Virus record (IMG/VR): IMGVR_UViG_3300021389_002175
Span: 1 to 36,251 of that record
DNA: 36,251 nt
Source of the DNA: a virus
Strand: one strand, 5' to 3'
This document shows positions 1 to 33,330 of the stretch, piece by piece. Below the pieces are notes generated by a model. It searched no databases. It saw nothing but the letters and a program-made list of their open reading frames with translations, and was not told the DNA's origin. The position numbers and the translations under genes were made by a program. Position 1 is the stretch's first letter; every line of letters begins with the position of its first letter.

Positions 1-21
1 TCCCCCCCCAGAAGATCAAAG

Positions 22-45: not shown

Positions 46-64
46 ATGAAGTATAAGTAATATT

Positions 65-1219
65 ATGAAAACAGCATGCAGCAAAAGCTGGACTGATGTA
101 AACATAGATTTTGCAAATAGATTAATAAGAAACTGTTGTAGATCTGTCGAATATAAAATGCCCGACAGTTATGATATAGATTTCTTTAATAACAGTCCTC
201 AAATACAGCAAAGAAGATCTAGTACACTATCTGGTGAACAACATCCTGATTGTGCTCATTGTTGGGAAAGTGAAAACGCTGGAATACCCAGTTACCGCTC
301 ACAGCAAAATAAATGGCAAGACTTTAGTGGTGTAACTCGAGATCCACAAACTACATACATTGATGTGACACTTGATACTACATGTGATCAAAGTTGTTTA
401 TATTGTGCTGCTGATGCTAGTAGTCAAATAGCTCAAGAAGAAGGTGTACCTATACGTGATAACGGTACCGAACATGACTTTGAAACATTTAAACGTTGGG
501 TATCAACACTTAGTGGAGACGTAGTGTTTAATTTTTTAGGTGGTGAACCAACTGCCAGTAAACGTTTTGCCCCAATGGTAGAATATATAAATCAACAAAA
601 TGTTAATGCAGAATTTGAAATTTGTACAAATTGTAATACAACTGAACCCATGATGAAACGATTATTAAAAACTATACGTGGTAGTGGTAAGCCATGGAAT
701 GTTGCTATTAGTAATGAAACTTATGCTGAACACGCAGAACTATTACGTTATGGATTAGATTGGGAAAGGTTTAAAAAAAACTTTATAACTTATATAACTA
801 CACCAGAAATTTTAAGCATTACATTGGCACCCACTACCAACGCATTTAGTATACGTTATTTTCCACAATATATCGAGTGGGTGTATGAAACTTTCTTGAC
901 ACATGCACCAGATAAATCATTTAGTTGGCATGGTAGTTATATTACTAGACCGCAGGCAATGGATATTAAGTATTTGCCTGCAAAGGATCGCATGCACATA
1001 CAACGTGCAATTAGCGTAAACAACAAATACAAAAATCATCATTTGCTAACAAATGCTCGTAACTTAGATAAATTTGGTGAATATCTACAAGCAATGTCTG
1101 ACAGAATAGGGTCTGCAACTCCTGAAGGTTATAGTGATCGTAATCAACAAATTGGGCTGAAGCACTTCCTCAATGAAAAACAACAAGTCAAACAAAAGGA
1201 TCTATCGTCACTATTATGA
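65..1219 (+). CDS. Twitch-type radical SAM protein
   Basis: A 384-aa radical SAM enzyme. C107, C111 and C114 (CDQSCLYC) form the CX3CX2C [4Fe-4S] site that cleaves S-adenosylmethionine, and LGGEPT near 158-163 is the GGE SAM-binding motif. A second cysteine set (C24-C25, C63, C66 in CAHCW) lies before the core. This resembles a SPASM/twitch auxiliary-cluster module placed at the N-terminus, as in phage 'twitch domain' radical SAM proteins. The start follows the terminator closely and no clear ribosome site is visible. Its stop overlaps the next start (ATGA), and the next gene has the same architecture, so the two probably act together. Such enzymes commonly modify peptides or sugars. The substrate here is unknown. 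Confidence 0.85.
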   Translation: MKTACSKSWTDVNIDFANRLIRNCCRSVEYKMPDSYDIDFFNNSPQIQQRRSSTLSGEQHPDCAHCWESENAGIPSYRSQQNKWQDFSGVTRDPQTTYIDVTLDTTCDQSCLYCAADASSQIAQEEGVPIRDNGTEHDFETFKRWVSTLSGDVVFNFLGGEPTASKRFAPMVEYINQQNVNAEFEICTNCNTTEPMMKRLLKTIRGSGKPWNVAISNETYAEHAELLRYGLDWERFKKNFITYITTPEILSITLAPTTNAFSIRYFPQYIEWVYETFLTHAPDKSFSWHGSYITRPQAMDIKYLPAKDRMHIQRAISVNNKYKNHHLLTNARNLDKFGEYLQAMSDRIGSATPEGYSDRNQQIGLKHFLNEKQQVKQKDLSSLL

Positions 1220-2340
1220 CTAATTTTTGTGTACATAGTTTAGCTGGTGTAAGTGTAGTAGATAGTCGTGGAGCACTGCGTCCATGCTGCAAATACGATA
1301 ATAGAGATAGTATTCCTACCATATTTGATGTCGACACACTGGACGGGTTGCATCGTATTAAACCATATGCTGATATAAAAAATAATCTCAATAAAGGCAA
1401 TTGGCCACGTGGCTGCCATCGATGCCAACTGTCTGAACAGAGTAATATACAATCACGTAGACAATGGACAAATAAGTTTTATGGCGATCATGGTTTGATT
1501 TTGAAACCAGGCAAGATTCAAGACTTAGAGATTGCACTAGATTATACATGTAACATGCGTTGTCAAATATGCAATCCCGGAGCGAGTAGTAAGTGGAGTA
1601 CTGATAAAAGTTTACTCAATGAACTAGATACATTGGGTGTAAAACTGGATGGTCATACTGATTATCGTAACTACCAGGATCGTATGCAGTATGTGTTATC
1701 AAATACTGATTTAAGTGCAGCACGACATGTTAAAATAGAAGGCGGCGAGCCGTTTTACGCCAAACATTTAAGTTGGTTTGTAAACAAATTACGACATGAA
1801 GTTTTACAACCACACCTGTTATTTTTAAATATCACAACAAACGGCAGTGTATATCCAGAAAAAAAAGTTATACGGCAATTGCAATACTTTCGAAACAGTT
1901 GTATATCATTTAGTTTAGATGGTACGGAAAAACTAGCAGAAGCTACTCGTTGGGGAGCTAAATGGGAAACTATTGATGAAAATATCAAGAAGTTTACGCA
2001 AACTGGTATTAACTTGCAAGCTAGTTGTACTGTTAGTATACTTAATTGGAACCAACTTGCTCCATTGATAAGATACTTAAAACATCGAAACATAACATTA
2101 AATTTTAGTGAGCTGACAGATCCAAAACATTTAAGTATATACCAGTTACCACTCAGTGTTAGAAAACAATTTGTAACTGGTAACACATCGTTAGACAATA
2201 TACTAACCGCAGATATTACGATTGATAATCAGTTATCAAAAACTCGTGATTATATTAATATTATTGATCGCTACCAAAAAACAGATTTTAGTAGTGTGAA
2301 TAAACAAGCATGGGAGATAATAAATGCTAATATCAGGTAA
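1216..2340 (+). CDS. Twitch-type radical SAM protein, second copy
   Basis: A 374-aa radical SAM enzyme. C112, C116 and C119 (CNMRCQIC) bind the catalytic cluster, and EGGEP near residues 177-181 is the SAM-binding GGE motif. The N-terminal cysteines C24-C25 (LRPCCKY) and C67/C70 (CHRC) look like an auxiliary-cluster module ahead of the core, as in the gene before it. The two proteins share layout but are clearly diverged, so this is an old duplication or two separate acquisitions. It starts within the stop of the previous gene (ATGA) and overlaps the next by 17 bases, which indicates translational coupling. The substrate is unknown. Confidence 0.85.
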   Translation: MTNFCVHSLAGVSVVDSRGALRPCCKYDNRDSIPTIFDVDTLDGLHRIKPYADIKNNLNKGNWPRGCHRCQLSEQSNIQSRRQWTNKFYGDHGLILKPGKIQDLEIALDYTCNMRCQICNPGASSKWSTDKSLLNELDTLGVKLDGHTDYRNYQDRMQYVLSNTDLSAARHVKIEGGEPFYAKHLSWFVNKLRHEVLQPHLLFLNITTNGSVYPEKKVIRQLQYFRNSCISFSLDGTEKLAEATRWGAKWETIDENIKKFTQTGINLQASCTVSILNWNQLAPLIRYLKHRNITLNFSELTDPKHLSIYQLPLSVRKQFVTGNTSLDNILTADITIDNQLSKTRDYINIIDRYQKTDFSSVNKQAWEIINANIR

Positions 2341-2881
2341 TCCTGAACAGGGAATAGCACAAGCACTGTTTAAGTTATATCCAGATGCTACCTATATGAG
2401 TAGAAGTAGTGGACATGACTTGGTTGAACGGCGTGGAAGAGAGAGTTTTGCTCAAGAAGCACTTAATCATGACGTTATTATAGTTAACAGTGCACTGTGG
2501 CAGTTTCAACAAACTGTACTACTAGATGCAGTGTACAAGAGCCTAAAGGATGCCAAGAAACTAGCACATATTGTTGTAATTGGTAGTACGACTGATAGAG
2601 TTAAGAACGGCAAGGCATGGTTATACAATGCAGAAAAGAAAGCGTTGCGTGATTACAGTAATACACTAGCAATAGGCGGTGTTTGGAGTCGTATGCCTAA
2701 AGTAAGCTACATTAGTTTTGGTACACTTAGCAATAATGAACACAAACATCCTGACAGGCGTTGTATGGATATAGATCAGGCTGCTGGATATATTAAATGG
2801 ATTATTGATGCTCCACGTGAAATAAATATAAATGAAATAAGTATTGATCCTATGCAAGACGATAACTGGTATGCCCTTTAG
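2324..2881 (+). CDS. SDR-like Rossmann-fold protein
   Basis: A 185-aa protein that reads like a small short-chain dehydrogenase/reductase. It opens with a beta strand and a glycine-containing turn (ISGNPEQGIAQAL), has VVIGS in the usual catalytic-serine strand, and carries YNAEKKAL, the family YxxxK pair, around residue 105. It is shorter than typical SDRs (about 250 aa), and the first glycine motif is degenerate. It may therefore be an atypical member or no longer bind NAD(P). It overlaps the radical SAM genes on both sides. It probably oxidises or reduces an intermediate in the same pathway, which is inference from position. Confidence 0.6.
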   Translation: MLISGNPEQGIAQALFKLYPDATYMSRSSGHDLVERRGRESFAQEALNHDVIIVNSALWQFQQTVLLDAVYKSLKDAKKLAHIVVIGSTTDRVKNGKAWLYNAEKKALRDYSNTLAIGGVWSRMPKVSYISFGTLSNNEHKHPDRRCMDIDQAAGYIKWIIDAPREININEISIDPMQDDNWYAL

Positions 2882-3530
2882 TAGAAATATTAACTATTTA
2901 CATTTTGGTCTTACAAGTAAGTGTACACTCAAATGTCCAGAGTGTGTACGAACAATGAGTAATCCTACGCTTAATACAGTATGGCGTGATATTAAAGAGC
3001 AACGACAAATTGATTGGAAGCAATACCGATCAATTATTAAAGATTTATCATACAACTCAATACTATTTTGTGGTAATTGGGGCGATCCAATATACTATAC
3101 TGGTCTAATAGAGTTTATCGTTTATATTAAAACTGTTACTGATGTTCCTATAGTTATTCACACAAACGGTAGTTATAAAGATGCTAATTTTTGGCGTCAG
3201 TTAGGAACAGTATTACAACAAGATGATAATGTTGTGTTTAGCATTGACGGATTAATAGATGATGACCAATATCGTATTAATAGTGATGCCACTAGTAGAA
3301 GGTTAGGTATTAGTACACTTGCTAATATATTACCCGAAGAAACTCGACCAAGAGTAAGTCAAAAATGTATATTATTTCGTTATAATGAAAATAGAATCTG
3401 GCAAATAGTAACTGAATCTCGCAAACTTGGTTTTGACTGTATAATTTTTGATACGCCTATCACAGATAATAATCCAGATCTGACACCACATTATTTTGGA
3501 GACAGATTCGAGGTACATTTTGATGAGTAG
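2871..3530 (+). CDS. Radical SAM core protein, lacking SPASM domain
   Basis: A 219-aa protein. C18, C22 and C25 (CTLKCPEC) form the radical SAM cluster site. FCGNWGDP occupies the place of the usual GGEP motif, and VFSIDG is a core-domain strand. The reading frame extends upstream to a TTG, but the ATG at 2871 is preferred because it gives only an 11-base overlap with the preceding gene. The protein stops just where a SPASM domain would follow. That domain is encoded separately in the next frame from 3523, overlapping by 8 bases. Family members normally have both on one chain, so the enzyme probably works as a two-subunit complex, unless a frameshift joins them. Confidence 0.8.
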   Translation: MPFSRNINYLHFGLTSKCTLKCPECVRTMSNPTLNTVWRDIKEQRQIDWKQYRSIIKDLSYNSILFCGNWGDPIYYTGLIEFIVYIKTVTDVPIVIHTNGSYKDANFWRQLGTVLQQDDNVVFSIDGLIDDDQYRINSDATSRRLGISTLANILPEETRPRVSQKCILFRYNENRIWQIVTESRKLGFDCIIFDTPITDNNPDLTPHYFGDRFEVHFDE

Positions 3531-3807
3531 TATTGATCCAAAATGTCAATCAACTGATATAAATTACCATGTTGAAATAAACGGATTGTTCTTACCATGT
3601 TGTTGGATAGCTACACATCGTGAAAGTATTAAAGATCTACGTGAAAGATTAGGTGATGATTATGACCTTTTGTTTTTGACAAATAACGATCCTTATAGTA
3701 TAATAGACTTGTGGGAAAAACATATCGAAAGTAGTTGGGAAACAGATACTCCTGTGCCCATGTGCAAAATTAAGTGTACTAAAAAAAGGAACGGCAATGG
3801 AGTTTAA
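3523..3807 (+). CDS. Stand-alone SPASM-like auxiliary cluster domain
   Basis: A 94-aa protein matching the C-terminal third of radical SAM/SPASM enzymes: C8, the GLFLPCCW strand (C26, C27), a 'IIDLWEKH' helix and a final CKIKC (C81, C85). These cysteines would hold an extra [4Fe-4S] cluster. It has no radical SAM core and begins at an ATG that overlaps the stop of the core-only protein before it, so it is read as that enzyme's second subunit. A TTG 27 bases upstream would lengthen it slightly. Its 3' end overlaps the next radical SAM gene by 11 bases. Confidence 0.7.
   Translation: MSSIDPKCQSTDINYHVEINGLFLPCCWIATHRESIKDLRERLGDDYDLLFLTNNDPYSIIDLWEKHIESSWETDTPVPMCKIKCTKKRNGNGV
3676..3704 (+). 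promoter_or_regulatory. Consensus sigma70-type promoter inside a gene
   Basis: TTGACA (3676-3681) and TATAAT (3699-3704) are both perfect hexamers with a 17-base spacer, inside the SPASM-domain gene. Transcription would start near 3711, about 85 bases before the radical SAM gene at 3797, and could give that half of the operon extra early expression. Consensus-like pairs also occur by chance in AT-rich coding sequence, hence the moderate confidence. Confidence 0.45.
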
Positions 3808-4753
3808 AAGAGCAGTAATAGAAGTATTTGGTGGATGCAATTACACTTGTAAAATGTGTCCCCAAACTAGTCCAGGTAGAGAGACTAGTTTTTTAAGACG
3901 TATGCCGTTTGACTTATTTGAAAATATATTAGATCAATTAACTGGCTCACCTGTCGTCAACTTGGAAGGCAGCGGTGAACCAACGTTAGAGCCTGAGCTT
4001 CCACGTTATATAGAAGCAGTTACACGACGAGGATTTCGTCCTTATATATACAGTAATGGTAGTGGCATGCATGGCGATTATATGCGTGATTGTGTTGATG
4101 CAGGACTTAAACTGTATCGTTTTAGTGTAATAGGATACAACAGAGAACGTTATCAAGAATGGATGAATATAGATAATTGGGATCTAATACATCAAAGCAC
4201 ATGTGAAATGCGTGATTATATCAAAAAGAGTGGTAGCGATTGTAGTCTACATAGTTATCATCTAATACTTGATCCCAACCAAACAGAATATGAAGTAGAA
4301 CAGTATCAACAAAATTTTATTTTTCCAACTGGTACAACTGCATATATTTGGAAAATGCACAACTGGAGTGGAAACTATACTCCTGATTACACAAGAGATG
4401 ATCGTAAAAAACGAAGTTGTGGCCGCCCGTTTGCAGATGAAATAACATTTAGAGCAGGAGGAACTGGCGGTATGCGAGGAGCCGTCACACCTTGTTGTCA
4501 AACGCTAGGTCCTCCAAATGAAAGTTTAAGTGTATTAGGCCATGCAAGTCATCAGAGTATAGAAGATATTTACTATGGAGATGCGTACAACCATCTTCGT
4601 AAAGCACACGAAATGGGAGATTGGGATGCTGTTCCTTATTGTAAAGACTGTGATTTTTTATATGAAGATCCTGAAGTATTAGTATGGAGTAATGACACAA
4701 ATGCTACACAGGGTCGTATGCTGGGCGTAAATAATATTGCAATATCACAATGA
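3797..4753 (+). CDS. Radical SAM/SPASM protein
   Basis: A 318-aa enzyme with the full conventional layout. C14, C18 and C21 (CNYTCKMC) bind the catalytic cluster, and LEGSGEPTLEP near residue 55 is the SAM-binding motif. The C-terminal half has a SPASM-type cysteine set (SCGRPF, TPCC and YCKDCDF). SPASM enzymes typically act on peptides, for example in RiPP or sulfatase maturation, but some act on small molecules. It overlaps the SPASM-fragment gene upstream, and its stop forms ATGA with an oxygenase gene. This is the only unpermuted, complete SPASM enzyme in the cluster apart from the one at 7441. Confidence 0.87.
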   Translation: MEFKRAVIEVFGGCNYTCKMCPQTSPGRETSFLRRMPFDLFENILDQLTGSPVVNLEGSGEPTLEPELPRYIEAVTRRGFRPYIYSNGSGMHGDYMRDCVDAGLKLYRFSVIGYNRERYQEWMNIDNWDLIHQSTCEMRDYIKKSGSDCSLHSYHLILDPNQTEYEVEQYQQNFIFPTGTTAYIWKMHNWSGNYTPDYTRDDRKKRSCGRPFADEITFRAGGTGGMRGAVTPCCQTLGPPNESLSVLGHASHQSIEDIYYGDAYNHLRKAHEMGDWDAVPYCKDCDFLYEDPEVLVWSNDTNATQGRMLGVNNIAISQ

Positions 4754-5283
4754 ATATCACTTTTCACGACACACCAAGCCCATATGCAACAGTTACTGAC
4801 GTATTTGATACTCAAGATTTGCAAACTTTTCAGCAAATTGCGGACCAAGCGCCAATGGGAGATAGCTGGATAGAAAATAATAACATGGACCAATATGCAT
4901 GGAAATTGTATCATAAAATATATCCCACGCTTAATCGAAAAACTCAAGATAGAAACAACTGTCTTGAATGCAGTACTGATGCTAGCTTCTTTAAAATACA
5001 AATAAAAAAACTAGAACCAGGGTTTAAACGTAATCGCATACACACCGACAGTGATTGGAAACAATTTGTTACAGTTGTTTATTTAGATGGACAAGGACTG
5101 GGAACAAAGTTATATGCTAGTAATGAAGGTGACCCTGAGCGTGTTATCCCATATATACACAACACAGGATATTCAATGATACCAAATGCAACTAGTTGGC
5201 ACGATTTTGATCACAGTGCTGACTTTACTGAAATAAGAACTACTCTTATGTTTATACTAGCAAATCGGGGGTTTTATAAATGA
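4750..5283 (+). CDS. Fe(II)/2-oxoglutarate oxygenase-like protein
   Basis: A 177-aa compact double-stranded beta-helix protein. The facial triad is readable as HTD (RIHTDSDW), then a distal histidine in SWHDF, followed 12 residues later by an arginine (RTTLMF) suited to binding 2-oxoglutarate. The VVYLDG and GYSMIPN strands fit the fold. Such enzymes hydroxylate or desaturate proteins, sugars or small molecules using O2. It is coupled by ATGA overlaps to the radical SAM gene before and the CMP-sugar synthetase after, so a sugar or glycopeptide substrate is possible but not shown. Confidence 0.75.
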   Translation: MNITFHDTPSPYATVTDVFDTQDLQTFQQIADQAPMGDSWIENNNMDQYAWKLYHKIYPTLNRKTQDRNNCLECSTDASFFKIQIKKLEPGFKRNRIHTDSDWKQFVTVVYLDGQGLGTKLYASNEGDPERVIPYIHNTGYSMIPNATSWHDFDHSADFTEIRTTLMFILANRGFYK

Positions 5284-5951
5284 GTACAGTTATTCTAATT
5301 CCAGTTAGATTAAAAAGTACAAGATTTCCAAACAAGGGCCTAGCTGATCTAAACGGCAAGCCCATGATACGACGAGTTTTTGACCGATGCGAAGCCATGG
5401 GTTATGATACAGTTGTATTAACAGATACTGATCAATTAAATTCAGTAATACCATCAAGCAACATTGTTCTGACTTCACCAGACTGTACCGACGGTACTGA
5501 CCGCTGTATTAGTGTAATAGGAAGAGAACTCAATTACGACAAATATATTAACGTGCAAGGTGATAATCCTGACGCAACTATAGAGCCTGTACAAGCTATC
5601 GAACGTGCACTTGATACACATTATGTATATCAAGCATATAAGTCAATGACGCCAGAAGGCCGCAGTGATCCAACAGTGTGTAAAATGGTTATGACCAATG
5701 ATCGTGTACATTGGTTTTGCAGAAGTGAATTATCATATGGAGAATTTGCACTAGGCTTTCATGGATACACCCAAGAAGCAGCAGAACGTTGGAGAACATT
5801 TACTCGCTATCCGGCTGAAATCACAGAAACTATAGAAGCATTACGTTGGATACAAAATGGTGATGAACTACGTGGTGTTAAATGTGAATTTGATGGTATA
5901 GAAATAAATGTGCCAAGTGACTTAGAATTATGGAGATCCGTTAATAAATGA
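5280..5951 (+). CDS. KdsB-like CMP-sugar cytidylyltransferase
   Basis: A 223-aa nucleotidyltransferase resembling 3-deoxy-manno-octulosonate cytidylyltransferase (KdsB, usually about 250 aa). Features are the N-terminal signature IPVRLKSTRFPNKGL, then DGTDRC, the metal-binding strand NVQGDNPD, and the C-terminal EALRWIQNG helix and ELWRSV. KdsB joins CTP to a 2-keto acidic sugar to give the CMP-sugar used by glycosyltransferases. The central part is shorter and the exact sugar cannot be read. It is coupled to genes on both sides. It is distinct from the second, NeuA-like cytidylyltransferase at 29132. Confidence 0.8.
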   Translation: MSTVILIPVRLKSTRFPNKGLADLNGKPMIRRVFDRCEAMGYDTVVLTDTDQLNSVIPSSNIVLTSPDCTDGTDRCISVIGRELNYDKYINVQGDNPDATIEPVQAIERALDTHYVYQAYKSMTPEGRSDPTVCKMVMTNDRVHWFCRSELSYGEFALGFHGYTQEAAERWRTFTRYPAEITETIEALRWIQNGDELRGVKCEFDGIEINVPSDLELWRSVNK

Positions 5952-6706
5952 AAATTTGGAGTTACGGAGACAGTCACCCAGCAGGACACGAACTAGGAAC
6001 TGAGTATGCACACGACTTAGGTGCAAGTTGGTTTGCAAGCGAAGGATGGTATAGTGATGATCTTAATACAACTGTACGACATGTATGTAGAAATCGTTTG
6101 GGTACAGAAAAATATAATAAAATAATAAAACAAAAATGGTACAAGCACATTCGCAATCAGTGTACACCCAGTTTGAGTTATGCAGGTGTGCTTGCTGAAC
6201 GTTTGGGTGCTGAACTTGTAAACAGAGCGGAGCCAGGTTCAAGCAACAGTCTCAGCATACTAAAAATGTATCAAGATGTTGAACAGTATCAACCTGACGA
6301 CATAGTACTGTTCAGTGTGGTAACACCTTTTCGCTATATACCTGCCAATGACATTGACGCTACTAATCATCAAATACATTGGCTGCCAGAATATCAAGCT
6401 GAAGTATTATGGGATGTAGGCCCACACGATGTTTGTTTTCGACTACAAACGCACGGTTATATACCGCTTGCTCGCAGTTTACATCCACGTTGCTATACAT
6501 TTAAAACAGTAAATGATGACATGACTGTTTTAGGGAAAGACGTAGATGTAAATATACCATTAAGTTTTTATCAACTATCTGAACAACATGTTAATGAACC
6601 AGAAAATGGTATAGAATCTTACAGATACCCTGGCGGACACTTGCATGAAGATTTACATGTAGCATATGGAGAATATTTGGCAAATGAACTTTCCAAAACG
6701 AACTAA
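5948..6706 (+). CDS. SGNH/GDSL hydrolase-like protein
   Basis: A 252-aa protein opening with WSYGDSHPAG, the block I serine motif of SGNH esterases. PGSSNS near residue 97 is a candidate block II/III Gly/Asn region, DDIVLFSVVTPFR is a following core strand, and HEDLHVAYGEYLA near the end offers the block V Asp/Glu-x-x-His pair. SGNH enzymes add or remove acyl groups, often on polysaccharides, which suits a place beside a CMP-sugar synthetase. The first codons overlap the preceding stop (ATGA). Block II and III assignments are less certain than blocks I and V. Confidence 0.65.
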   Translation: MKIWSYGDSHPAGHELGTEYAHDLGASWFASEGWYSDDLNTTVRHVCRNRLGTEKYNKIIKQKWYKHIRNQCTPSLSYAGVLAERLGAELVNRAEPGSSNSLSILKMYQDVEQYQPDDIVLFSVVTPFRYIPANDIDATNHQIHWLPEYQAEVLWDVGPHDVCFRLQTHGYIPLARSLHPRCYTFKTVNDDMTVLGKDVDVNIPLSFYQLSEQHVNEPENGIESYRYPGGHLHEDLHVAYGEYLANELSKTN

Positions 6707-7436: not shown

Positions 7437-7440
7437 TAAA

Positions 7441-8559: not shown

Positions 8560-8579
8560 TTGATAAGAGGAGTGGACTG

Positions 8580-9435: not shown

Positions 9436-9437
9436 AA

Positions 9438-10157
9438 ATGTCAAGATATGGAGATGGTACTTACCTTGAAGCTGACAAATATTTGGCTTTGCATAGTGCA
9501 CCTGTGGTGCCCACTAGTATAGTAATTGATCCTGATGAATTTAATGCAGTTATGCTAGAATACCAGTATGCATTTCGTAGTTGGGGGGAAAAGAAAAAAC
9601 ATTTCCCACGATACGGCTTACCATTAGTAAATGATAATGGAAGTATGTATAACAACCCAGAGCCAGTGTGCTATCCACTAGACGAATGGTTAGAGCATTT
9701 ATCAGAAGAGGATTGGGTATTTGACAGAGACTTTACCACAAAAACACCAGTGTTTGAACACCCAGTATTTGATCCGTTACGAGTATTTGATGGGCACTGG
9801 GCACGTAGTTGTATACTAAGATGGGATAGCGAAAGCTTCTTTTATCCACACAGTGATACTTGGTTGCCAAGTCCTATATTAAGATTGTGGGGAACAACTG
9901 ATCCTGACCATGCACGTTTTCAATTTGATCGTGAATATCGTAGACCAGATACGCCAGGATTAGTACCCAGTATGGATCCAGATATGATAGACTGGCCAGG
10001 CGAGATAGAAGCAGGCCGCATGTATTTGGTAGATACCAGTTTAATACATACAGCCCGTAGTATTGGTGATCATCCTACGCACCAGTTCTTTTTAGCAGTG
10101 CATACTGATGCTTATGACACTATGCAATCAGTATTAGATACAACGTCCAGTATGTAA
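9438..10157 (+). CDS. Fe/2OG-like oxygenase with altered arginine site
   Basis: A 239-aa protein with the oxygenase pattern YPHSDTW (HxD), then RLWGT and MYLVDTSLIHTAR (distal histidine). The arginine expected about 10-12 residues after the second histidine is not there (the position reads THQFFL), so 2-oxoglutarate may be held differently or activity lost. The N-terminal half (PVCYPLDEWLEHL) has no motif I can name. It starts two bases after the preceding gene. Its 3' end overlaps the oppositely oriented TauD-like gene by 24 bases, which marks the strand switch. Confidence 0.6.
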   Translation: MSRYGDGTYLEADKYLALHSAPVVPTSIVIDPDEFNAVMLEYQYAFRSWGEKKKHFPRYGLPLVNDNGSMYNNPEPVCYPLDEWLEHLSEEDWVFDRDFTTKTPVFEHPVFDPLRVFDGHWARSCILRWDSESFFYPHSDTWLPSPILRLWGTTDPDHARFQFDREYRRPDTPGLVPSMDPDMIDWPGEIEAGRMYLVDTSLIHTARSIGDHPTHQFFLAVHTDAYDTMQSVLDTTSSM

Positions 10158-11111
10158 CCTATAAGGTGTTTTATACCAGAAGCTAGTACGTTGTAATTCA
10201 CGCTTTGCTGTTTCAGGATCTAAACCTTTTTCTAGCCATACATTATTGCGTCTATGGACACCAGTTAATTGTTCCATAAAGCAAATATCACCTACTTCCC
10301 ATTCATGTGCATAATGATATTGATCACTGTCAATATATTCTGCTTTAATCTCTTCGTAAATCTCACGATGATTTTCCAATTTGTTACCATCTTTGTCAGC
10401 CATGTAGCTTAAATTTAAGTGTGGAAAGTACACACCTTTAATACCCAATGGATGTCTACTAATCATTTTTAGTGTGTTCTTTTTCTCAAACCGTGGCTCA
10501 CCAAATTTATTTTCAGGTTGATCATAGTTTAAACTTCGTTGTATTGCACGACTAGCACGTTTGTTATCAAAGTCTTTCAGCTCTGCTGTGGGCAGTACAT
10601 AGTGTGCTAGCCGATTTTCATATGTGTCTTCCATTTTGTTTGTGATACTCAAATACAGCGTGTCATATAATTCACGTTTTTCTTGGCTTAGATTGTTCCA
10701 GTATGGAATACTGTTAGCCATGATTGTTTGACTTCCTTTGGGTATTTCAACTGCACGTAAACCTACCATTTCTTCACTGTCAGGTGTAAACAATATATTG
10801 CAGTGCCAATCTAGTTCTCCGTGTCCAAACAAACCTTCTGCTTCGTGTTCGTCTTTTACTTTTAGATTGGTAACACGATAAATTTGTGGATACTTGTCGT
10901 CATTGCACCATATCTCTGCGGCTTGGTGATAGCCCACACGCATTTGAAAGTCTATGTATTCATCCACTGTGGCTGTATCTTTCTTCCATACTACAGTACC
11001 ATATTCACGTACTAGGTCAATAAAGTCTTGTTCTTTCATATCTTTATATGGTGTTAGTACTCTTACAGCTACAGTATATCCTGCACTGCTTTTAATATCT
11101 TCTATTTTCAT
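10134..11111 (-). CDS. TauD/TfdA-like dioxygenase, HxN variant
   Basis: A 325-aa protein with the TauD layout: an N-terminal half (DFIDLVREYGTVVW), ELDWHCNILFTPD at the metal site, GSQTIMAN, then C-terminal GDICFMEQLTGVHRR with the distal histidine and QRTSFWYK with the family arginine. TauD relatives normally have H-x-D/E at the first site. Here it reads HCN, because the codon is AAT where GAT would encode Asp. That could change iron binding or the reaction. It is the last gene of the long minus-strand run and overlaps the + strand oxygenase tail-to-tail. It overlaps the next gene upstream by 20 bases. Confidence 0.75.
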   Translation of the reverse strand: MKIEDIKSSAGYTVAVRVLTPYKDMKEQDFIDLVREYGTVVWKKDTATVDEYIDFQMRVGYHQAAEIWCNDDKYPQIYRVTNLKVKDEHEAEGLFGHGELDWHCNILFTPDSEEMVGLRAVEIPKGSQTIMANSIPYWNNLSQEKRELYDTLYLSITNKMEDTYENRLAHYVLPTAELKDFDNKRASRAIQRSLNYDQPENKFGEPRFEKKNTLKMISRHPLGIKGVYFPHLNLSYMADKDGNKLENHREIYEEIKAEYIDSDQYHYAHEWEVGDICFMEQLTGVHRRNNVWLEKGLDPETAKRELQRTSFWYKTPYRLHTGRCI

Positions 11112-11595
11112 TTATTGTCCTTTCGCATTCTTTAAACTCTTTTGTAAAAAATAGTTGTAATGTTACACGATCTTCCATAATACTATCACAGTTATCAACA
11201 GTATGTAATTGACTTACATCTAGTAATACTGGATGTTCATAATAATATCTTTCTCCAGTTTCACAAAATAAAAACGGTGCTTCAGTAGAATCGTTTAGTA
11301 ATATGTTTAGTTTACATCCATTGACATCTCGATGTGGCAAAACAAACCCATCTGGTTTAACTACATTAAAGTTAAATCCCAAACTGTCATCATATTCATT
11401 ACGCAAATAATCCAATGGTATACCAAGTGGATCGATTATTTCAGTTTTAATGTATTCTTGATCGTACCAGTTATCAATAAACACATTAGTAGTTTTTGCA
11501 ACTCGTGGATTATAGTAATCCTCACTGCGAGTACATCTTGAGTATATACTAAATAAATCACTTTTACTTATAGCAAGATCGTAAGACTTTATCAC
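11092..11595 (-). CDS. Small Fe/2OG oxygenase-like protein
   Basis: A roughly 167-aa beta-helix oxygenase. VLPHRDVNGCKLNILL gives the HxD pair, LLDVSQLHTVDN the distal histidine, and EDRVTLQLF the arginine 12 residues on. There is no ATG near the 5' end. I chose the GTG at 11595, which leaves a 32-base overlap with the upstream gene and follows an AGAAAG stretch. A GTG at 11646 is also open. The HTVD...EDR stretch closely matches the next gene upstream, so they are probably paralogues. The substrate is unknown. Confidence 0.65.
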   Translation of the reverse strand: MIKSYDLAISKSDLFSIYSRCTRSEDYYNPRVAKTTNVFIDNWYDQEYIKTEIIDPLGIPLDYLRNEYDDSLGFNFNVVKPDGFVLPHRDVNGCKLNILLNDSTEAPFLFCETGERYYYEHPVLLDVSQLHTVDNCDSIMEDRVTLQLFFTKEFKECERTINENRRY

Positions 11596-12196
11596 TAGCA
11601 ATACTTTCTGCAAAACTTGTTTCAAGTGCAATACTAAGGAATGCACGATCTTCTGTTAGCTCTTCCAAACCATCTACAGTATGGTCTTCTTGCACATTCA
11701 ATAGAAGTGCAGTGTTATCTTTATAATTCCAACCCTCTTCAGTTTTAATCCAACGACATGTTCCTGCTTCAATGTTTTTAACTGGTACATTGAGCTTGCA
11801 CAATACATGATCTACTCCTGCATTGTGTTGCATGATAGCGGCTTTGCCTGCTACAAAACGTGTAAAATTAATACTGTTTTTAGGATAAGGAGGCACAAAT
11901 CCTTCCGTAAAACTTCCGCTTCTGTCACTGCTTACTGCATTACTATAGTCCAGTTCAGCAACATTTTCATAGTCTATGCCATAGTATGGAAGTATAGTAT
12001 CAATAATCCACTGTTGATCTTGTTGTGTTTCACACCATATTTGATCACAAACAAAGTCTCCATGGTTAGCGTGAAACGCAAACTCAAGTATATGTGTAGT
12101 ACATCTGTCGTATATTTCATTTAGTTTGTTGTGCCATTCAACAGGCATAGGTTCACATATTTTAAAATTTATAGGGTCTGCATGTTCATGATACAT
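11564..12196 (-). CDS. Fe/2OG oxygenase-like protein lacking HxD
   Basis: A 210-aa relative of the gene downstream. It shares LLLNVQEDHTVDG with the distal histidine and TEDRAFLSIAL with the arginine 12 residues later. At the first metal site it reads IMQHNAGVDHVLCKL, so the histidine is followed by Asn-Ala rather than x-Asp. H-x-A/G is the arrangement known from non-heme iron halogenases such as SyrB2. It may equally be a loop insertion or a dead copy. ATG start. It overlaps genes on both sides. Confidence 0.6.
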   Translation of the reverse strand: MYHEHADPINFKICEPMPVEWHNKLNEIYDRCTTHILEFAFHANHGDFVCDQIWCETQQDQQWIIDTILPYYGIDYENVAELDYSNAVSSDRSGSFTEGFVPPYPKNSINFTRFVAGKAAIMQHNAGVDHVLCKLNVPVKNIEAGTCRWIKTEEGWNYKDNTALLLNVQEDHTVDGLEELTEDRAFLSIALETSFAESIASDKVLRSCYK

Positions 12197-12764
12197 TTTG
12201 TTTTATCCTCTTTTTAGCGGTGTCGTAATCTACATCCATTATGCTTAATTTTAATAGTATTCTTTCTTGTGGATGTGCAGGTACACGGTGTAATCGACTT
12301 GTGTTTAATAATGCAACACGATATTCAAATTGACCTACGTCAACAAATTCTACTGGACCTGCACTCTCGTTTAAAATTATATTGACACCGCATTTGGTAT
12401 TATGATCTATATGTTCTGGAACTTCTCCGCCTGCCTTTAATTTATAGTAACGTGGACGTATGTCTTTAGTGCCGATTATATTAGCAAAATGTTTAGTAAC
12501 ACGAGCAGTTTCTGGATAGTTATTAACATTGTCACTTCCATCTTCTTCATAACCAAAAAACCGTGCCTGTGTCCATTGGTCCATATGTACATCGTTATCA
12601 GAGTGGAACCAATTTGGATCACTGTTTACATCATCTTGTGGCACAATAAACGGTTCGTAGTCTCTACTATATGCTTCATGTAATAATTTATCAGAACTGT
12701 AATCAGTATAATCAAAGCTATATAATACATCATTATCATAATATCTAAAATCAATCATCCACAT
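12186..12764 (-). CDS. Small Fe/2OG oxygenase-like protein
   Basis: A 192-aa protein with a complete oxygenase signature: VPEHIDHNTKCGVNIIL (HxD and following strand), RVALLNTSRLHRVPAH (distal histidine) and ERILLKLSI (arginine nine residues on). The N-terminal 90 residues are rich in Asp and Tyr with no motif I can name. It is the third in a row of small oxygenase-like genes and overlaps the SET-domain gene upstream by 14 bases. The order suggests tandem duplication followed by divergence. The target is unknown. Confidence 0.68.
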   Translation of the reverse strand: MWMIDFRYYDNDVLYSFDYTDYSSDKLLHEAYSRDYEPFIVPQDDVNSDPNWFHSDNDVHMDQWTQARFFGYEEDGSDNVNNYPETARVTKHFANIIGTKDIRPRYYKLKAGGEVPEHIDHNTKCGVNIILNESAGPVEFVDVGQFEYRVALLNTSRLHRVPAHPQERILLKLSIMDVDYDTAKKRIKQNVS

Positions 12765-13263
12765 TGTTATCTCTCATATATCTTGGATAAGCGGCAAGCA
12801 ATACTTTGGGCAAATGTTTGTAATCATCTGTTCGTATTGTGCCTCTGCAATATTTACTACCGCAATTACACTCATCAATAATAGTTTGTCCGTCACCTAC
12901 ACTAACACTTCCATAATCGATTGTAAGTTCTTCACCTGGAACAATATCAATAAAACTAACAAGTTCATTAAATCCACGCATACGACAATTTGGTTCACAA
13001 CTGTGATTAGTTGTTGCTCTAAACAATGAATGTACTTGGTGTAAGTATAATTTATTACCAATTGGCATGCATATCATTTGGTCAGGTTCATCTACTATAA
13101 CACCGCCTATAATAGCAATCAGAGTTTCTAGTTCTATACGATCCGCAGTAAATCTTCCTATACCATTGTCACATTGTCTTTGATATGTAGGTACTAGAAA
13201 ATGGCTGAGACTGTGATTGTATTGTTCAGCTATTTGATTAAGTAGTTTGAGCTTTTGATTCAT
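12751..13263 (-). CDS. SET-domain lysine methyltransferase-like protein
   Basis: A 170-aa protein with clear SET-domain motifs: GIGRF near residue 34, NHSCEPNC (86-93, the pseudoknot SAM-binding strand), and GEELTIDYG (110-118, with the catalytic tyrosine). A post-SET-like CNCGSKYCRG (132-141) would hold zinc with the SET cysteine. SET enzymes transfer methyl groups from S-adenosylmethionine to protein lysines. They are mainly eukaryotic, with scattered bacterial examples, so one on a phage is notable. It lies in the oxygenase run, and metK at 30093 could feed it. ATG start. It overlaps the desaturase gene upstream by 26 bases. Confidence 0.85.
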   Translation of the reverse strand: MNQKLKLLNQIAEQYNHSLSHFLVPTYQRQCDNGIGRFTADRIELETLIAIIGGVIVDEPDQMICMPIGNKLYLHQVHSLFRATTNHSCEPNCRMRGFNELVSFIDIVPGEELTIDYGSVSVGDGQTIIDECNCGSKYCRGTIRTDDYKHLPKVLLAAYPRYMRDNNVDD

Positions 13264-13990
13264 CGATTAAAAAATATTTTATAATTACAGCAGGTAAATC
13301 TATTTCCCACCATTTGATTCTATTGTCCCATGCCATTGGCTTTGCATGATGTGTGTTGTGTAGTCCACTGCCTAGTGTAATAAAATTTACCCATGTGTTG
13401 TTTGTGCTGTGATCAGGTGTGTCGTAATGTCTGTATCCCCATTTGTGACAAAAAACATTTACAAGTCCTGCACTGTGAAATGTTACAACTGCTGGTATAC
13501 TAATAAGGAATACTGGTATACGCCAATCAATAATAGCCAACAAAATATAAATGCTGACTAACAATTTTAGGTAATGTTTGTGTATGAATTTAATAGTAGG
13601 ATCCCGTACAAGATCAATTACATACTTTCTTTCAATTGTAAATGGTTCCCAAAATGTACTCCATATGCGCCAGCCTGGTTGCCCACCATGTGGATCTTCA
13701 GGACCTTCGCTTTTAGCATGATGTTTTCTATGTATTCCACACCAAGCAACTGGTGATCCAAAGCAATTGAATACACTTAGCCAGATGAGAAGTTTATGCT
13801 TAATATTGGTAGTAGTAAAACTTTTATGACACAAATATCTATGCAGTGCAATCTCGCCGCCTACTTTACCAAACAATATCCAGCCAGCAAAACTCATAGC
13901 AAGCCAAGTATAATCAGCGTACAATAAACCTATCACAAGTGCTACGTGATTGGCTAATAATACAAGTTTAAGTTTGTATTCGTAAGACAT
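13238..13990 (-). CDS. Membrane fatty acid desaturase
   Basis: A 250-aa integral membrane di-iron desaturase of the acyl-CoA/acyl-lipid delta-9 type. The histidine boxes are HRYLCH (about residue 50), HRKHH (about 87) and HNTHH (near the C-terminus), with hydrophobic segments between them. It inserts a double bond into a membrane fatty acyl chain using O2. The frame is open to a GTG at 14023, but the ATG at 13990 has a GGAG upstream and leaves a 23-base overlap. A second, shorter desaturase lies at 15762. Together they could change host lipid fluidity or make a lipid attached to another product. Confidence 0.88.
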   Translation of the reverse strand: MSYEYKLKLVLLANHVALVIGLLYADYTWLAMSFAGWILFGKVGGEIALHRYLCHKSFTTTNIKHKLLIWLSVFNCFGSPVAWCGIHRKHHAKSEGPEDPHGGQPGWRIWSTFWEPFTIERKYVIDLVRDPTIKFIHKHYLKLLVSIYILLAIIDWRIPVFLISIPAVVTFHSAGLVNVFCHKWGYRHYDTPDHSTNNTWVNFITLGSGLHNTHHAKPMAWDNRIKWWEIDLPAVIIKYFLIDESKAQTT

Positions 13991-14459
13991 ACTGATATTG
14001 TACTCCTGTATCCCAATTCTCACTACCCGGCATTGGATCGTGTGTTACTTTCCAAGAATATTTACTATGTTTAGCAAAGTACTCTAATAGTTCAGGCGAC
14101 TCTTCTCTACTTACCCAAACGTCTGTATAGCCCATTTCAAGTCCACGTTGAGTAAGCTGATCAAGTGTGTCCAATCCTCTACGAAGATCTGCACGATATC
14201 CGCCAAAGTCATAGTCTCTGTCTCTGGTGTGTCTACATATTACTCTAATACTGCCGTTGTATTCTGGACGCTCAACACCTGCACTGTAGTATACCATACG
14301 CCCTTGATCCCATCCCATACGAGCAAATTTAGTATACTCAAATAATGGATATTGACTATAGTTTTGTGCATGTTTGTGGTCAGAGTTTTTAGAAAACAGT
14401 GCACGGATATCCGCCATGTAAGGATCTATCTTAGAGAGACGCCAGATCATCTGTACCAT
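13968..14459 (-). CDS. Unknown protein, possibly GNAT-like
   Basis: A 163-aa soluble protein. I do not recognise it with certainty. The layout of a strand (SIRVICRHTRDRDYDFG), a long helix (LRRGLDTLDQLTQRGLEMG), then DVWVSREESPELLEYFAKH is reminiscent of N-acyltransferases of the GNAT fold. The glycine-rich acetyl-CoA loop is not convincing. The start could be the ATG at 14459 or one three codons later. It overlaps the hydroxylase gene upstream by 29 bases and the desaturase downstream by 23, so it belongs to the same coupled operon. Confidence 0.6.
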   Translation of the reverse strand: MVQMIWRLSKIDPYMADIRALFSKNSDHKHAQNYSQYPLFEYTKFARMGWDQGRMVYYSAGVERPEYNGSIRVICRHTRDRDYDFGGYRADLRRGLDTLDQLTQRGLEMGYTDVWVSREESPELLEYFAKHSKYSWKVTHDPMPGSENWDTGVQYQYVLRIQT

Positions 14460-15042
14460 CTAAACTAAACATTAGCGCAATTCTAGCATGTTTGCTCATG
14501 TTAACAACTGCATGTGGATATCCAATATTGAGAAAATATGCATTGCCATTTTCTAAGTTATATGCTTCTAATTCGCCGTCACGCCTAAACAAGTTAACAA
14601 CATTTTTGTCTCCATAGATAGGAACAATGCATCTAACAGCATAGTTCACATCATAGTCTACATGAAACGGAATAGTTTTGCCTGGTGCTAGTTTTGTAAT
14701 ACGTATACGACTAGCAGGTGCTTTGAGTTGTGTTACAATTTTTTCAAAGTAACTGCCTGTGTATTCTGGTGTAGGTACATTGTATAGGTGTTCTTCTCGA
14801 CGTCTAATACGCTCTTTGATACTTGCTTCGTAAGGTAGTATTTCACTAGGGGTTGTTAAGTTTATTTGTTTAAAATTATCATACACACTTGCAACAAGTT
14901 CCATGTGATTATCACATAACATTGGATTGGCAGTTCTAACATCGACAAATTTCTCTGCAAGTCTGATCATTTCTCCTTGCAAGGTATTTAAATCAATATC
15001 TAAGTTTAAGTTAGCTATACTTGGTAAATTATGTTTTTTCAT
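14431..15042 (-). CDS. Asp/Asn hydroxylase-like oxygenase
   Basis: A 203-aa Fe(II)/2-oxoglutarate oxygenase. TIPFHVDYDVNYAVR gives HxD, the VRCIVPIYG strand follows, and NAYFLNIGYPHAVVN gives the distal histidine. HARIALMFSL gives the arginine ten residues on, which is the spacing of the aspartyl/asparaginyl beta-hydroxylase family and of the + strand gene at 8854. An N-terminal helical stretch of about 90 residues precedes it. It starts at an ATG that overlaps the PLP-enzyme-like gene by 14 bases. It probably hydroxylates a peptide or an amino acid derivative. Confidence 0.75.
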   Translation of the reverse strand: MKKHNLPSIANLNLDIDLNTLQGEMIRLAEKFVDVRTANPMLCDNHMELVASVYDNFKQINLTTPSEILPYEASIKERIRRREEHLYNVPTPEYTGSYFEKIVTQLKAPASRIRITKLAPGKTIPFHVDYDVNYAVRCIVPIYGDKNVVNLFRRDGELEAYNLENGNAYFLNIGYPHAVVNMSKHARIALMFSLDGTDDLASL

Positions 15043-15799
15043 TCATTACTCCGGCAAGACATATTCTTGCTTTATTCCCATCTCTTTTATACTTATCAAA
15101 ATCGTTATCTGTTGTTGTACCCAACCATACACTATCACTTGGTGTGAAGTTTAACTGTTCACAAATACGCTTTTGTTCATTATATAACATTTTGTGTACA
15201 TAGTCAATATCAAAATTACTAATAATATTTTCACCAACATCATGTGCATAGTAATTGTAGTACTTGGCACTTTCTGTTAGGGCCTGTCTTTTTAAATCTG
15301 GTTTGCGACTAAAGTACCATCCTGTCCTTACATTACGAATACCAAATGGTTTACTTAAACTGAAAAATGCTTTTTCAACACCGTCATGTAGTTCAATCTT
15401 TTGTACACTAGTACTGCCAACATAAGCTAAATCTAGTGCAACTTTTATATGTTTGTCAACTGGACAGTAATTGCCGTCAATCGCACTTGGAATACTTTGA
15501 TAAACATAATGTGGTGCCATGCCATTACGCTTGTGATCTACCCATTGGTATTCACCAGGTGCACTCCATATATGATACTCACTTCTACCCCACCACCAAT
15601 CTAAACCTTCTGTTATACCATTAGTAGGGTAAACATGCCAGTCAGTTAAGTCAACAATAGGTTTTAACCATTTAATGATGTCAGTCTTGTAATGACGAAC
15701 ACTATCATAATCAGGTTTAATATTTTCAATTGAGTTGCGAACTTCTGGTAGAACGTTTGTTCTAACTGCCAGGCTTTGCTTTAATAAAAAATCTTTCAA
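15029..15799 (-). CDS. Short aminotransferase-like PLP-fold protein
   Basis: A 256-aa protein carrying class I/II aminotransferase landmarks in the right order: NGITEGL (about 60-66), LDLAYVG (D123, the pyridine-nitrogen Asp place) and FFSLSKPFGIRNVRTGW (K150, the PLP lysine, followed by the phosphate-binding Arg region). Usual family members are about 380-400 aa, so the N-terminal arm and part of the C-terminal domain are missing or replaced. The start is uncertain: the only early codon is a TTG at 15799, which overlaps the desaturase gene by 38 bases. It could be an amino-sugar or amino-acid transaminase, or a PLP-binding remnant. Confidence 0.65.
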   Translation of the reverse strand: MKDFLLKQSLAVRTNVLPEVRNSIENIKPDYDSVRHYKTDIIKWLKPIVDLTDWHVYPTNGITEGLDWWWGRSEYHIWSAPGEYQWVDHKRNGMAPHYVYQSIPSAIDGNYCPVDKHIKVALDLAYVGSTSVQKIELHDGVEKAFFSLSKPFGIRNVRTGWYFSRKPDLKRQALTESAKYYNYYAHDVGENIISNFDIDYVHKMLYNEQKRICEQLNFTPSDSVWLGTTTDNDFDKYKRDGNKARICLAGVMNEKT

Positions 15800-16400
15800 T
15801 TATCCATCCACTGAAATCATATTTGTTTAGTCTGTAATGTCCAGGATTGTTATGATGATATAAATGCCAACCTTCTCCGGGTGCTATTAAATTCATCAAA
15901 GGTACATCTTTTGGTTGACCGTCTTTGTGTGCTACGTAGTTTAACATTCCAAATCCAATCCAACTAATAGCGAACGGTAAGGCAACAAATACTGTGAGCC
16001 CCCAAATTCCAAATAGTATGAATACTAAAACAGTATAAAATAAGTGTATATACTTACCAAAGCGATGCCACCATACTATTCTTGGGTTACGCAATAAATC
16101 AACTATATATTTTTTAGGTATTTTCTCTACACGCCAACGTGATGTTAATACTGTTAAACTTCCTTTATATATAGGACTATGTGGGTCATGCTCTGTATCG
16201 CTTTTTGCATGATGCATACGATGAACCGCAGCCCAAGTCAATGCACTGCGTCCGCCGCATATCATTCCTAGAAACAACATTAAATGTTCTATAATAGGTG
16301 TAGTTTTGAAACTTCGGTGTGTAAAATAACGATGGTAACCGCTGCTTATACCAATTGCTGCTACTATATAATAAAAAATATACCCTTGTAAAATTATCAT
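15762..16400 (-). CDS. Membrane fatty acid desaturase, short form
   Basis: A 212-aa membrane desaturase with HRYFTH, HRMHH and HLYHHNNP histidine boxes and hydrophobic helices, the pattern of delta-9 acyl desaturases. It is shorter than the one at 13238 and starts directly in the first membrane helix, so the N-terminal helix pair is minimal. The ATG overlaps the thyA stop (ATGA). Two different desaturases in one phage operon suggest sequential modification of a lipid, or different chain positions. That is inference. Confidence 0.85.
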   Translation of the reverse strand: MIILQGYIFYYIVAAIGISSGYHRYFTHRSFKTTPIIEHLMLFLGMICGGRSALTWAAVHRMHHAKSDTEHDPHSPIYKGSLTVLTSRWRVEKIPKKYIVDLLRNPRIVWWHRFGKYIHLFYTVLVFILFGIWGLTVFVALPFAISWIGFGMLNYVAHKDGQPKDVPLMNLIAPGEGWHLYHHNNPGHYRLNKYDFSGWIIERFFIKAKPGS

Positions 16401-33329: not shown

Positions 33330-33330
33330 A

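Follow-up and report, generated by a model that had tools for sequence, protein, structure and literature searches.

The first 16.4 kb of a viral DNA fragment of 36,251 bases (IMG/VR record IMGVR_UViG_3300021389_002175, positions 1–36,251, referred to here as the window) contain an island rich in radical S-adenosylmethionine (SAM) proteins, Fe/2-oxoglutarate (2OG)-like oxygenases and membrane desaturases. This island consists of two recurring gene modules that are largely, but not wholly, separate. Module A, on the minus strand of the window, comprises a desaturase, a small pyridoxal phosphate (PLP) enzyme, a hydroxylase and a TauD-like protein. Module B, on the plus strand, is the radical SAM array. 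The 14 plus-strand genes (65–10157) and the 10 minus-strand genes (16400–10134) converge tail to tail at 10.13–10.16 kb. The enzymes most likely act on the surface of the phage itself or on that of its host. The best explanation is that the island is expressed late and serves the chemical maturation of tail fibres or virion glycans; it is put forward tentatively, as a real possibility.

The modules were recognized from gene neighborhoods in 254 loci, which form 153 sequence groups when loci are merged by shared 200-base words. The 5476 proteins of these loci were clustered. Wherever the best 80 of a longer list of relatives were kept, these are the closest relatives. Within six genes of AAH14431, the HxD oxygenase of module A (53 groups), the PLP enzyme is found in 40 groups, the TauD-like protein in 31, the desaturase FAD2 in 28 and a methyltransferase in 26. 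The array proteins rSAM4, rSAM8 and the twitch radical SAM family are found there in none and rSAM5 in one. Within six genes of rSAM5 (87 groups), rSAM8 is present in 26 groups, the twitch family in 25, the c17 family and the oxygenase AAH8854 in 22 each, rSAM4 and a nitroreductase in 16 each, the PLP enzyme in 15, FAD2 in nine and AAH14431 in one. Because the loci had been fetched around their anchors, a reciprocal scan anchored on the TauD-like family was run (143 relatives, best 80 kept, 50 groups). Here the methyltransferase accompanies the anchor in 48 groups, AAH14431 in 45, the PLP enzyme in 44, FAD2 in 38 and AAH8854 in 21, and the array is represented by rSAM5 in six, the twitch family in five and rSAM4 in none. 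The PLP enzyme and AAH8854 bridge the two modules. A single 24-gene pathway was rejected, since AAH14431 is so seldom near the array. An earlier reading made from the sequence alone had proposed one or two modification pathways; two recurring modules were found, to which a chemistry can be assigned only conditionally.

Gene order is conserved as well. The ten-gene order of the minus strand is kept in one independent relative, seen as the similar contigs G001 and G002 (one group), and six of these genes occur in order in L006, whose contig ends within the SET gene. The genes are thus not scattered singly without order. The core of FAD2, PLP enzyme, hydroxylase and TauD-like protein recurs in dozens of sequence groups and, with intervening genes, in Pelagibacter phage Mosig, an isolate of a different lineage. 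In one strand-run, this pelagiphage (Kyanoviridae) carries genes annotated as FA_desaturase, aminotransferase, FMN reductase, peroxiredoxin, TauD, methylase, N-acetyltransferase and Asp_Arg_Hydrox. The cassette is therefore common to different phage lineages. The window's module A adds the desaturase FAD1, the SET protein and three further oxygenase-like genes, and has no such methyltransferase.

Open reading frames (ORFs) were called mechanically as the longest open frame, and the names glycosyltransferase-like, SGNH-like, GNAT-like, SDR-like (short-chain dehydrogenase/reductase), QueE-like and tail-fibre-like (family c43) were given by eye. The five radical SAM proteins of the sequence-only reading are confirmed: the CX3CX2C motif is present in all of them, and PF04055 scores above its cut-off in four. 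On the plus strand, rSAM1 (65–1219) has an N-terminal twitch-like domain (PF04055, 38.4 bits; NF033640, 168.1 bits, just under the cut-off of 170 bits), and the twitch protein rSAM2 (1216–2340) reaches 33.3 and 195.3 bits, respectively, the latter above the cut-off. The N_Twi_rSAM model NF033640 does not exceed its cut-off in rSAM3, rSAM4 or rSAM5. The small SDR-like protein of family c17 (2324–2881) has a weak Pfam match (E 0.09), and its relative L190:5789–6343 has none. The radical SAM core domain of rSAM3 (2844–3530) scores 22.2 bits against the PF04055 cut-off of 29.5 bits (E 1.7e-4). The following ORF (3496–3807) resembles the C-terminal part of one-ORF relatives, with a weak match (E 0.004) to the C-terminus of L164:1621–2559. 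Together, rSAM3 (228 aa) and this ORF (103 aa, in another frame) look like one split radical SAM gene (2844–3807), albeit with that weak similarity of the second half. Relatives with 313–319 aa are single ORFs; the same two split ORFs are also present in the overlapping contig G003, described below. The radical SAM/SPASM protein rSAM4 (3797–4753) has at least 123 related stretches in viral contigs.

Downstream of rSAM4, a 2OG-like oxygenase is recognized by its HTD...H motif (4750–5283), without a Pfam match. The next gene codes for a CMP-sugar synthetase, a KdsB-like cytidylyltransferase (5280–5951; PF02348, 72.1 bits, cut-off 22.6 bits), for which the models of 3-deoxy-manno-octulosonate cytidylyltransferase stay below their cut-offs. 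It is followed by the SGNH-like protein (5948–6706; no Pfam match) and a protein without a Pfam or PHROG match (6666–7436), which is 87% identical in L011 at the same place. The hallmark radical SAM gene, rSAM5 (7441–8556), precedes a small protein of 98 aa (8580–8876) that also follows rSAM5 in G001. This small protein was rejected as a peptide substrate: its relatives occur in few loci, no group of them reaches 40% identity, and other families succeed rSAM5 elsewhere. The last plus-strand genes are AAH8854 (8854–9435), an oxygenase of the Asp/Arg-hydroxylase family (PF05118, 35.5 bits, above cut-off), and a 2OG-like oxygenase recognized by motif (9438–10157; HxD in 8 of 8 rows).

In its direction of transcription, the minus-strand set starts with FAD2 (15762–16400; PF00487, 41.1 bits, cut-off 29.7 bits) and a compact fold-type-I PLP enzyme (15029–15799). 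The latter has no Pfam match, but its model (predicted local distance difference test, pLDDT, of 91.2) matches fold-type-I aminotransferases in a PDB fold comparison at 10–17% identity. AAH14431 (14431–15042; PF05118, 28.9 bits, above cut-off) is 70% identical to its counterpart in Mosig and adjoins the GNAT-like gene (13968–14459; no Pfam support) in eight groups. FAD1 (13238–14023) reaches 57.5 bits for PF00487. Both desaturases contain three His boxes by eye, in agreement with the proposed di-iron membrane desaturases. The SET-domain protein (12751–13263; PF00856, 31.5 bits, cut-off 22.4 bits) belongs to a lysine-methyltransferase family. The remaining genes are a PF05118-like oxygenase (12186–12764; 19.2 bits, below the cut-off of 22.6 bits; HxD in 3 of 3 rows), a protein with HNA in place of HxD (11564–12196; 3 of 3 rows) that by eye is a relative of its neighbor, that neighbor itself (11092–11646; 2OG-like by its HRD...H motif, 3 of 3 rows) and a TauD-family protein with HCN in place of HxD (10134–11111; PF02668, 72.2 bits, cut-off 27 bits). 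Thus, domain searches support the radical SAM, desaturase, SET and cytidylyltransferase families, the PLP enzyme is supported by its fold, and the SDR-like and SGNH-like assignments depend on a weak match and on inspection by eye, respectively.

About eight Fe/2OG-like proteins had been proposed for the island. By homology or motif this number holds, but half of them have no Pfam match. Pfam matches were obtained for four (8854, 14431 and 10134 above the cut-off, 12186 below it), and 4750, 9438, 11092 and 11564 match no Pfam or PHROG family at E <0.01. The HxD and the later His are kept in 3 of 3 (4750), 8 of 8 (9438) and 3 of 3 (11092) aligned rows, the window row included. Of the His-x-Asp/Glu...His metal triad, HxD is intact in six of the eight proteins.

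The other two carry the changes at 10134 and 11564 given above, and the change at 10134 has a counterpart throughout the TauD-like family of module A. In this family (c6; PF02668, 60.3 bits), HxN is found in 46 of 46 aligned rows (37 HSNG, nine HANG). The divergent TauD of the window has HCN in 2 of 2 rows. One of the two patterns of the TauD-anchored scan demands HSN, so the unbiased count of Asn is that of the aligned rows only. The other 2OG-like families that were checked keep HxD, apart from that of 11564 and one of nine rows of family c67. In three alignments with solved structures, the position of the Asn is occupied by Asp in phenoxypropionate dioxygenases. The model of the TauD-like family has a pLDDT of 83.9, with values <50 in the loop bearing the Asn, and its closest PDB folds are ScoE and SfaA (E 1e-17 to 3e-16; 16–21% identity). 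In profile and fold the family is like TauD/TfdA and ScoE-type Fe/2OG enzymes; those enzymes have an iron-binding Asp, whereas the phage rows examined have Asn instead. Halogenases have Ala or Gly at the position of the iron-ligand Asp, and changes of the iron site can switch hydroxylation to other chemistry. The HNA site of 11564 is as in halogenases. A natural Asp-to-Asn change that is fixed across a TauD-like family is of interest to enzymologists.

The dense island described by the sequence-only reading is real and larger than claimed, as the window contains only its right-hand end. The IMG/VR record G003 (65,881 bases) overlaps positions 1–6189 of the window with two mismatches and extends leftward. 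Given this overlap, one virus population is probably the source of both G003 and the window. In G003, the tail-type genes, among them that for a 3651-aa protein, reach to 15,313; behind them lie glycosyltransferase-like genes and then the enzyme array, which includes radical SAM, 2OG-like, SGNH-like, methyltransferase, carbamoyltransferase, PP-loop and cytidylyltransferase genes. Among 41 G003 proteins upstream of the overlap, PF04055 matches 15 and SPASM six, and the CX3CX2C motif occurs in 14 ORFs. Counting these 14 and the five of the window, this virus has at least 19 radical SAM genes; the QueE-like gene at 31260, with PF04055 below cut-off, may add another. According to the coordinates of G003 and the window, the island measures ~60 kb, counted from the first glycosyltransferase-like gene up to where the minus-strand cassette ends. 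In 37 viral records with island genes, including that of the window, the PF04055 count is 1–22 (median 11) and at least 10 in 23; these records were hand-picked from contigs holding island genes, are mostly long and do not form a random sample. Ten T4-like or jumbo isolates have counts of 0–4 (Phosso 4; Mosig 2; 121Q, GAP32, XbC2, HTVC008M and T4 1 each; PA5oct, Vibrio 2.275.O and P-SSM2 0).

Directly upstream of the window lies a nitroreductase-family gene (c23; G003 59054–59686; 71% to its nearest relative), which was read from the sequence outside the ORF filter. The window begins at a C-rich run (1–10), where the assembly probably broke. An inverted repeat followed by T5 (1–46, plus strand) is terminator-like and lies between the nitroreductase-family gene and rSAM1; the terminator scan lists this stem for the minus strand only. 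Overall, terminator-like sites show no excess (nine observed, 8.7 in shuffles), and an Rfam search of the window and two flank pieces gave no match.

The close relative G001 (197,947 bases) is collinear with the window and G003, shows the same array layout and has 20 PF04055 matches. Its homologues of the tail-type genes of G003 are 48–67% identical and have the same layout. On the right side of the window, the MetK, QueE-like, FolE, exonuclease, second cytidylyltransferase, phosphoribosyltransferase, glycosyltransferase-like and cupin genes are 77–92% identical to those of G001, and NeuB, 26718 and 32336 are just 30–38% identical. ThyA and DHFR are present in the window, and a ThyX-like gene occupies that place in G001. 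The G001 capsid protein (PF07068) is 71% identical to that of Pseudomonas jumbo phage PA5oct and 70% to that of Vibrio phage 2.275.O. Judged from this capsid likeness, the phage of the window is a member of a T4-related jumbo lineage. Two G001 genes (33449–34108 and 54042–54557) are relatives of the PcyA (45%) and the heme oxygenase (42%) of Mosig.

The right flank of the window contains, on the minus strand, a possible sugar-supply region (26718–29902) with NeuB fused to a cupin, a second cytidylyltransferase and one further protein. The fusion joins NeuB to a cupin/D-lyxose-isomerase-like domain (27670–29187) and adjoins the second cytidylyltransferase. S-adenosylmethionine synthetase (MetK; 30093–31190, minus strand) has three Pfam domains above cut-off, is 92% identical in G001 and is a possible source of SAM for the radical SAM genes. 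The region 30093–34879 with MetK, QueE-like, phosphoribosyltransferase and FolE genes points to possible SAM supply and 7-deazaguanine-type chemistry. A MoxR-type ATPase and a VWA/metallopeptidase-like protein (19329–22051) are neighbors in 23 sequence groups. The PHROG of the latter protein carries the label HNH endonuclease, for which its Pfam domains give no support.

Proximity to tail or virion genes is observed in three genomes. In G003, the island lies on the same strand as the 3651-aa protein and the further tail-type genes and follows them. This giant protein has a match in the Sinorhizobium isolate Phosso, namely an annotated virion structural protein (30% over 457 aa, E 4e-52). Two smaller tail-type proteins match the pair of Phosso genes that separates this virion gene from a run of radical SAM genes. 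The run starts ~3 kb from the virion gene; in this region (L289, 179870–195012), four genes are annotated as radical SAM, one of them ~4 kb from the rest, and an 'oxidoreductase' has a weak PF04055 match. With homologues of the tail-type genes beside its radical SAM run, Phosso carries a small version of the array at the homologous site. The likeness consists of four PF04055 matches in ~7 kb beside the giant virion protein and the tail-type homologues; the difference is that Phosso has far fewer genes than the island of the window. AAH14431, rSAM5, FAD1 and the PLP enzyme have no match in Phosso in the GenBank phage collection. In Mosig, the oxygenase island adjoins tail-fibre genes. A tail-type protein with Tyr-Gly repeats directly precedes the array (L269:14192–15313 in G003; G001 96794–97945) and is a candidate substrate; the repeat occurs in none of the other 5476 ORFs, and the substrate role is put forward as an idea.

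The timing of expression was approached through the T4-type late-promoter word TATAAATA. Its only copy in the window (8552–8559, plus strand; 5.75 expected by chance) lies 20 nt before the next ATG, that of the ORF behind rSAM5. Two further copies lie close ahead of the nitroreductase-family gene that directly precedes the window, and in G001 and G003 the word stands before the same tail-type gene. Over all loci it is depleted (369 copies, ~989 expected from base composition). At positions –70 to +20 it occurs in 5 of 15 groups of the tail-fibre-like family, 5 of 17 of the nitroreductase and 10 of 53 of FAD2, against a background of 3.8% of 3517 ORF groups (binomial p of 2e-4, 3e-4 and 3e-5, respectively, uncorrected for 21 family sets). 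In the related isolate CBB, a similar motif is linked to late genes, and it is also predicted before structural genes of GAP32 (PMC5259590). The placement of the word suggests late expression. The notion that the minus-strand module is always early was dropped, as FAD2 has the word in those ten groups of relatives.

The activities of the enzymes, their late expression, their target and the benefit to the phage are inferred from these observations as follows. The island would be a surface-maturation locus of a T4-related jumbo phage, built from two modules. Module B is the row of radical SAM proteins with SDR-like, nitroreductase, sugar-activating, SGNH-like and glycosyltransferase-like genes, and in this virus it continues the tail-gene region on the same strand. 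In module A, the desaturase, the PLP enzyme, the HxD hydroxylase and the TauD-like enzyme with the Asn triad would make or tailor a second building block, with GNAT-like, methyltransferase, SET or redox genes as partners. Both modules would at least partly be read from T4-type late promoters, when virion proteins form; the likeliest target would therefore be the phage's own tail fibres or adhesins, or a glycan on them. The SET, CMP-sugar, NeuB and carbamoyltransferase genes fit protein or glycan decoration. Swapping of cassettes would alter surface chemistry, as fibre swapping alters protein. A bolder form is rather doubtful: a virion-finishing factory in marine T4-related jumbo phages, in which a late, cassette-swapping array of ~20 radical SAM genes and an oxygenase/desaturase module, with a His-Asn-His or two-His iron site in its TauD-like protein, would put unusual groups (possibly halogenated, cross-linked or glycosylated) on tail fibres for host recognition, rSAM5 being the hallmark of a large uncultured phage group.

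Several observations weigh against surface maturation by a late island. The modules overlap: AAH8854 occurs with both, and the PLP enzyme and FAD2 lie near rSAM5 in 15 and nine of 87 groups, respectively. A recognizable structural gene is present in the fetched stretch in just 32 of 87 rSAM5 groups and 26 of 53 AAH14431 groups, and the nearest one shares the strand with rSAM5 in 1 of 41 copies and with AAH14431 in 15 of 41. G001, G003, Phosso and Mosig are the only genomes with a firm link to tail genes. One exact promoter word was tested, and in two of the ten FAD2 groups it falls just inside the called ORF. Most family sets have no such site, including rSAM5 (0 of 87) and the PLP enzyme (0 of 50), which is expected for operon-inner genes, yet gives no support for late expression. 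In the window, the minus-strand module is without the word and lies closely spaced on one strand with thyA and DHFR, and because of this it may be early there. A sigma-70-type scan was no better than chance (87 versus 80). The glycosyltransferase-like genes were named by eye only (no glycosyltransferase family is among the Pfam matches of 41 G003 proteins), and glycan and lipid roles account for many of the same genes.

The main rival is remodeling of the host envelope, which we regard as somewhat unlikely. The enzymes would build or alter the host O-antigen or another surface glycan and block competitor phages by serotype conversion. The CMP-sugar, NeuB and carbamoyltransferase genes and several glycosyltransferase-like and SGNH-like genes are consistent with this, and such a role has been proposed for the glycosyltransferases of the pelagimyophage host recognition cluster (PMC7029224). 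However, the promoter word suggests late expression for parts of both modules, which is late for superinfection exclusion. Furthermore, no lipid-carrier transferase, flippase or polymerase was found in the Pfam tally of 41 G003 proteins, a weak test in view of the many proteins without a Pfam match.

It is unlikely that the substrates of module A are fatty acyl or amino-lipid compounds and that it either remodels host membrane lipids or makes a small acylated metabolite. Its gene set of desaturase, PLP enzyme, GNAT-like protein and a TauD-like fold near the isonitrile fatty-acid enzymes ScoE, SfaA, MmaE and Rv0097 speaks for such a role, as do the two desaturases of the window and the best PDB folds of the TauD model (ScoE and SfaA). 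PF05118 also contains lipid A hydroxylases. On the other hand, the substrate cannot be read from a fold likeness at ~20% identity, the metal triad is a different one, and no acyl-carrier or acyl-ligase gene was recognized in the window or G003 by eye and by Pfam searches.

Still less likely are metabolic or redox accessory genes without a common product, in which the oxygenases would tune host 2OG or Fe-S metabolism. Precedents are the cyanophage 2OG oxygenases linked to NtcA signaling (Sullivan 2010, PMC3037559) and the viral Fe-S genes, 12 radical SAM genes included, discussed by Nishimura 2017 (PMC5332604); the two tight, largely separate neighborhoods and the strong conservation of rSAM5 and AAH14431 favor specific pathways instead. 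Counter-defence or nucleotide chemistry related to viperin is very improbable and was set aside: four of the five window radical SAM proteins match PADLOC viperin models weakly (best 28.6–40.9 bits) and viperins are the top PDB matches of the rSAM5 profile (E 0.007), but NCBIfam NF038283 scores 22.6–41 bits against a cut-off of 180 bits, no viperin model cut-off is reached, the matches are confined to the radical SAM core, and viperins are outscored by other radical SAM enzymes in the wider profile.

The sequence-only reading named no phage pathway that needs this gene set. No product is known indeed, but similar loci are in print. Pelagimyophages have a hypervariable host recognition cluster with radical SAM cassettes (Zaragoza-Solas 2020, PMC7029224). 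Like the island, this cluster is a large variable region with accessory genes in the structural region by the tail-fibre genes (PMC7029224), and Mosig has module A genes beside its tail-fibre genes. The phage of the window differs by its jumbo lineage, its at least 19 radical SAM genes and its two modules. The giant tail-adjacent protein gave no match to VrlC of Mosig, and identity with the published cluster is therefore one of position and content only. The 183 kb T4-like environmental genome TARA_ERS488813_N000010 has 12 radical SAM genes, discussed as Fe-S genes (Nishimura 2017, PMC5332604), and is likened to the window by description only. Radical SAM genes are among the main accessory genes of Tasman Sea phages (PMC7150976). 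T4-like marine cyanophages share several 2OG oxygenases per phage (Sullivan 2010, PMC3037559); the sections of that paper used here mention no radical SAM array. P-SSM2 has no PF04055 match. Cyanophages reportedly carry lipid desaturases, going by the title alone of a paper by Roitman (2018, ISME J), and the likeness is that of viral desaturases. A pelagiphage scaffold with a desaturase is mentioned in PMC11480375. Passages from PMC7678222, PMC9004378 and PMC3475032 contain nothing on the modules, and no report of the two modules or the HxN family was found in the open-licence literature, which is not proof of absence. Thus, earlier publications cover the locus type and also a T4-like genome that has 12 radical SAM genes; the modules, the triad change and the scale are new as far as searched.

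For rSAM5, viral contigs contain at least 295 related stretches (the best 80 are 82–94% identical), and there is no match among 50,697 GenBank phage records, which shows how much of this biology the reference set misses. For AAH14431, at least 146 stretches were found in viral contigs (the best 80 are 72–94% identical) and one GenBank phage record, Mosig. Mosig is also the only direct DNA match among these records to window positions 8500–16420; positions 1–8000 have none. Among 84,980 species genomes, two strict patterns place rSAM5 on at least four contigs, all of metagenome-assembled genomes (MAGs); this is a lower bound. Two of these MAGs also hold phage Gp23 capsid genes. The twitch family was found (E <=1e-20) in one of 240 genomes sampled from the class of one rSAM5 MAG (titled Rickettsiales), namely that MAG itself. 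Bacterial gene neighbors were rejected as a guide to function, as no host function is readable from the four contigs. A marine habitat is plausible from the source of Mosig and the MAG names.

Module A has a core of a size that allows reconstitution, and Mosig and Pelagibacter HTCC1062 are an isolated pair carrying module A; the question is therefore testable now. If surface maturation is true, some large phages would change their surface chemistry, and not just their fibre sequence, to meet new hosts. They would do so with kinds of enzymes whose usual substrates are peptides, sugars or lipids.

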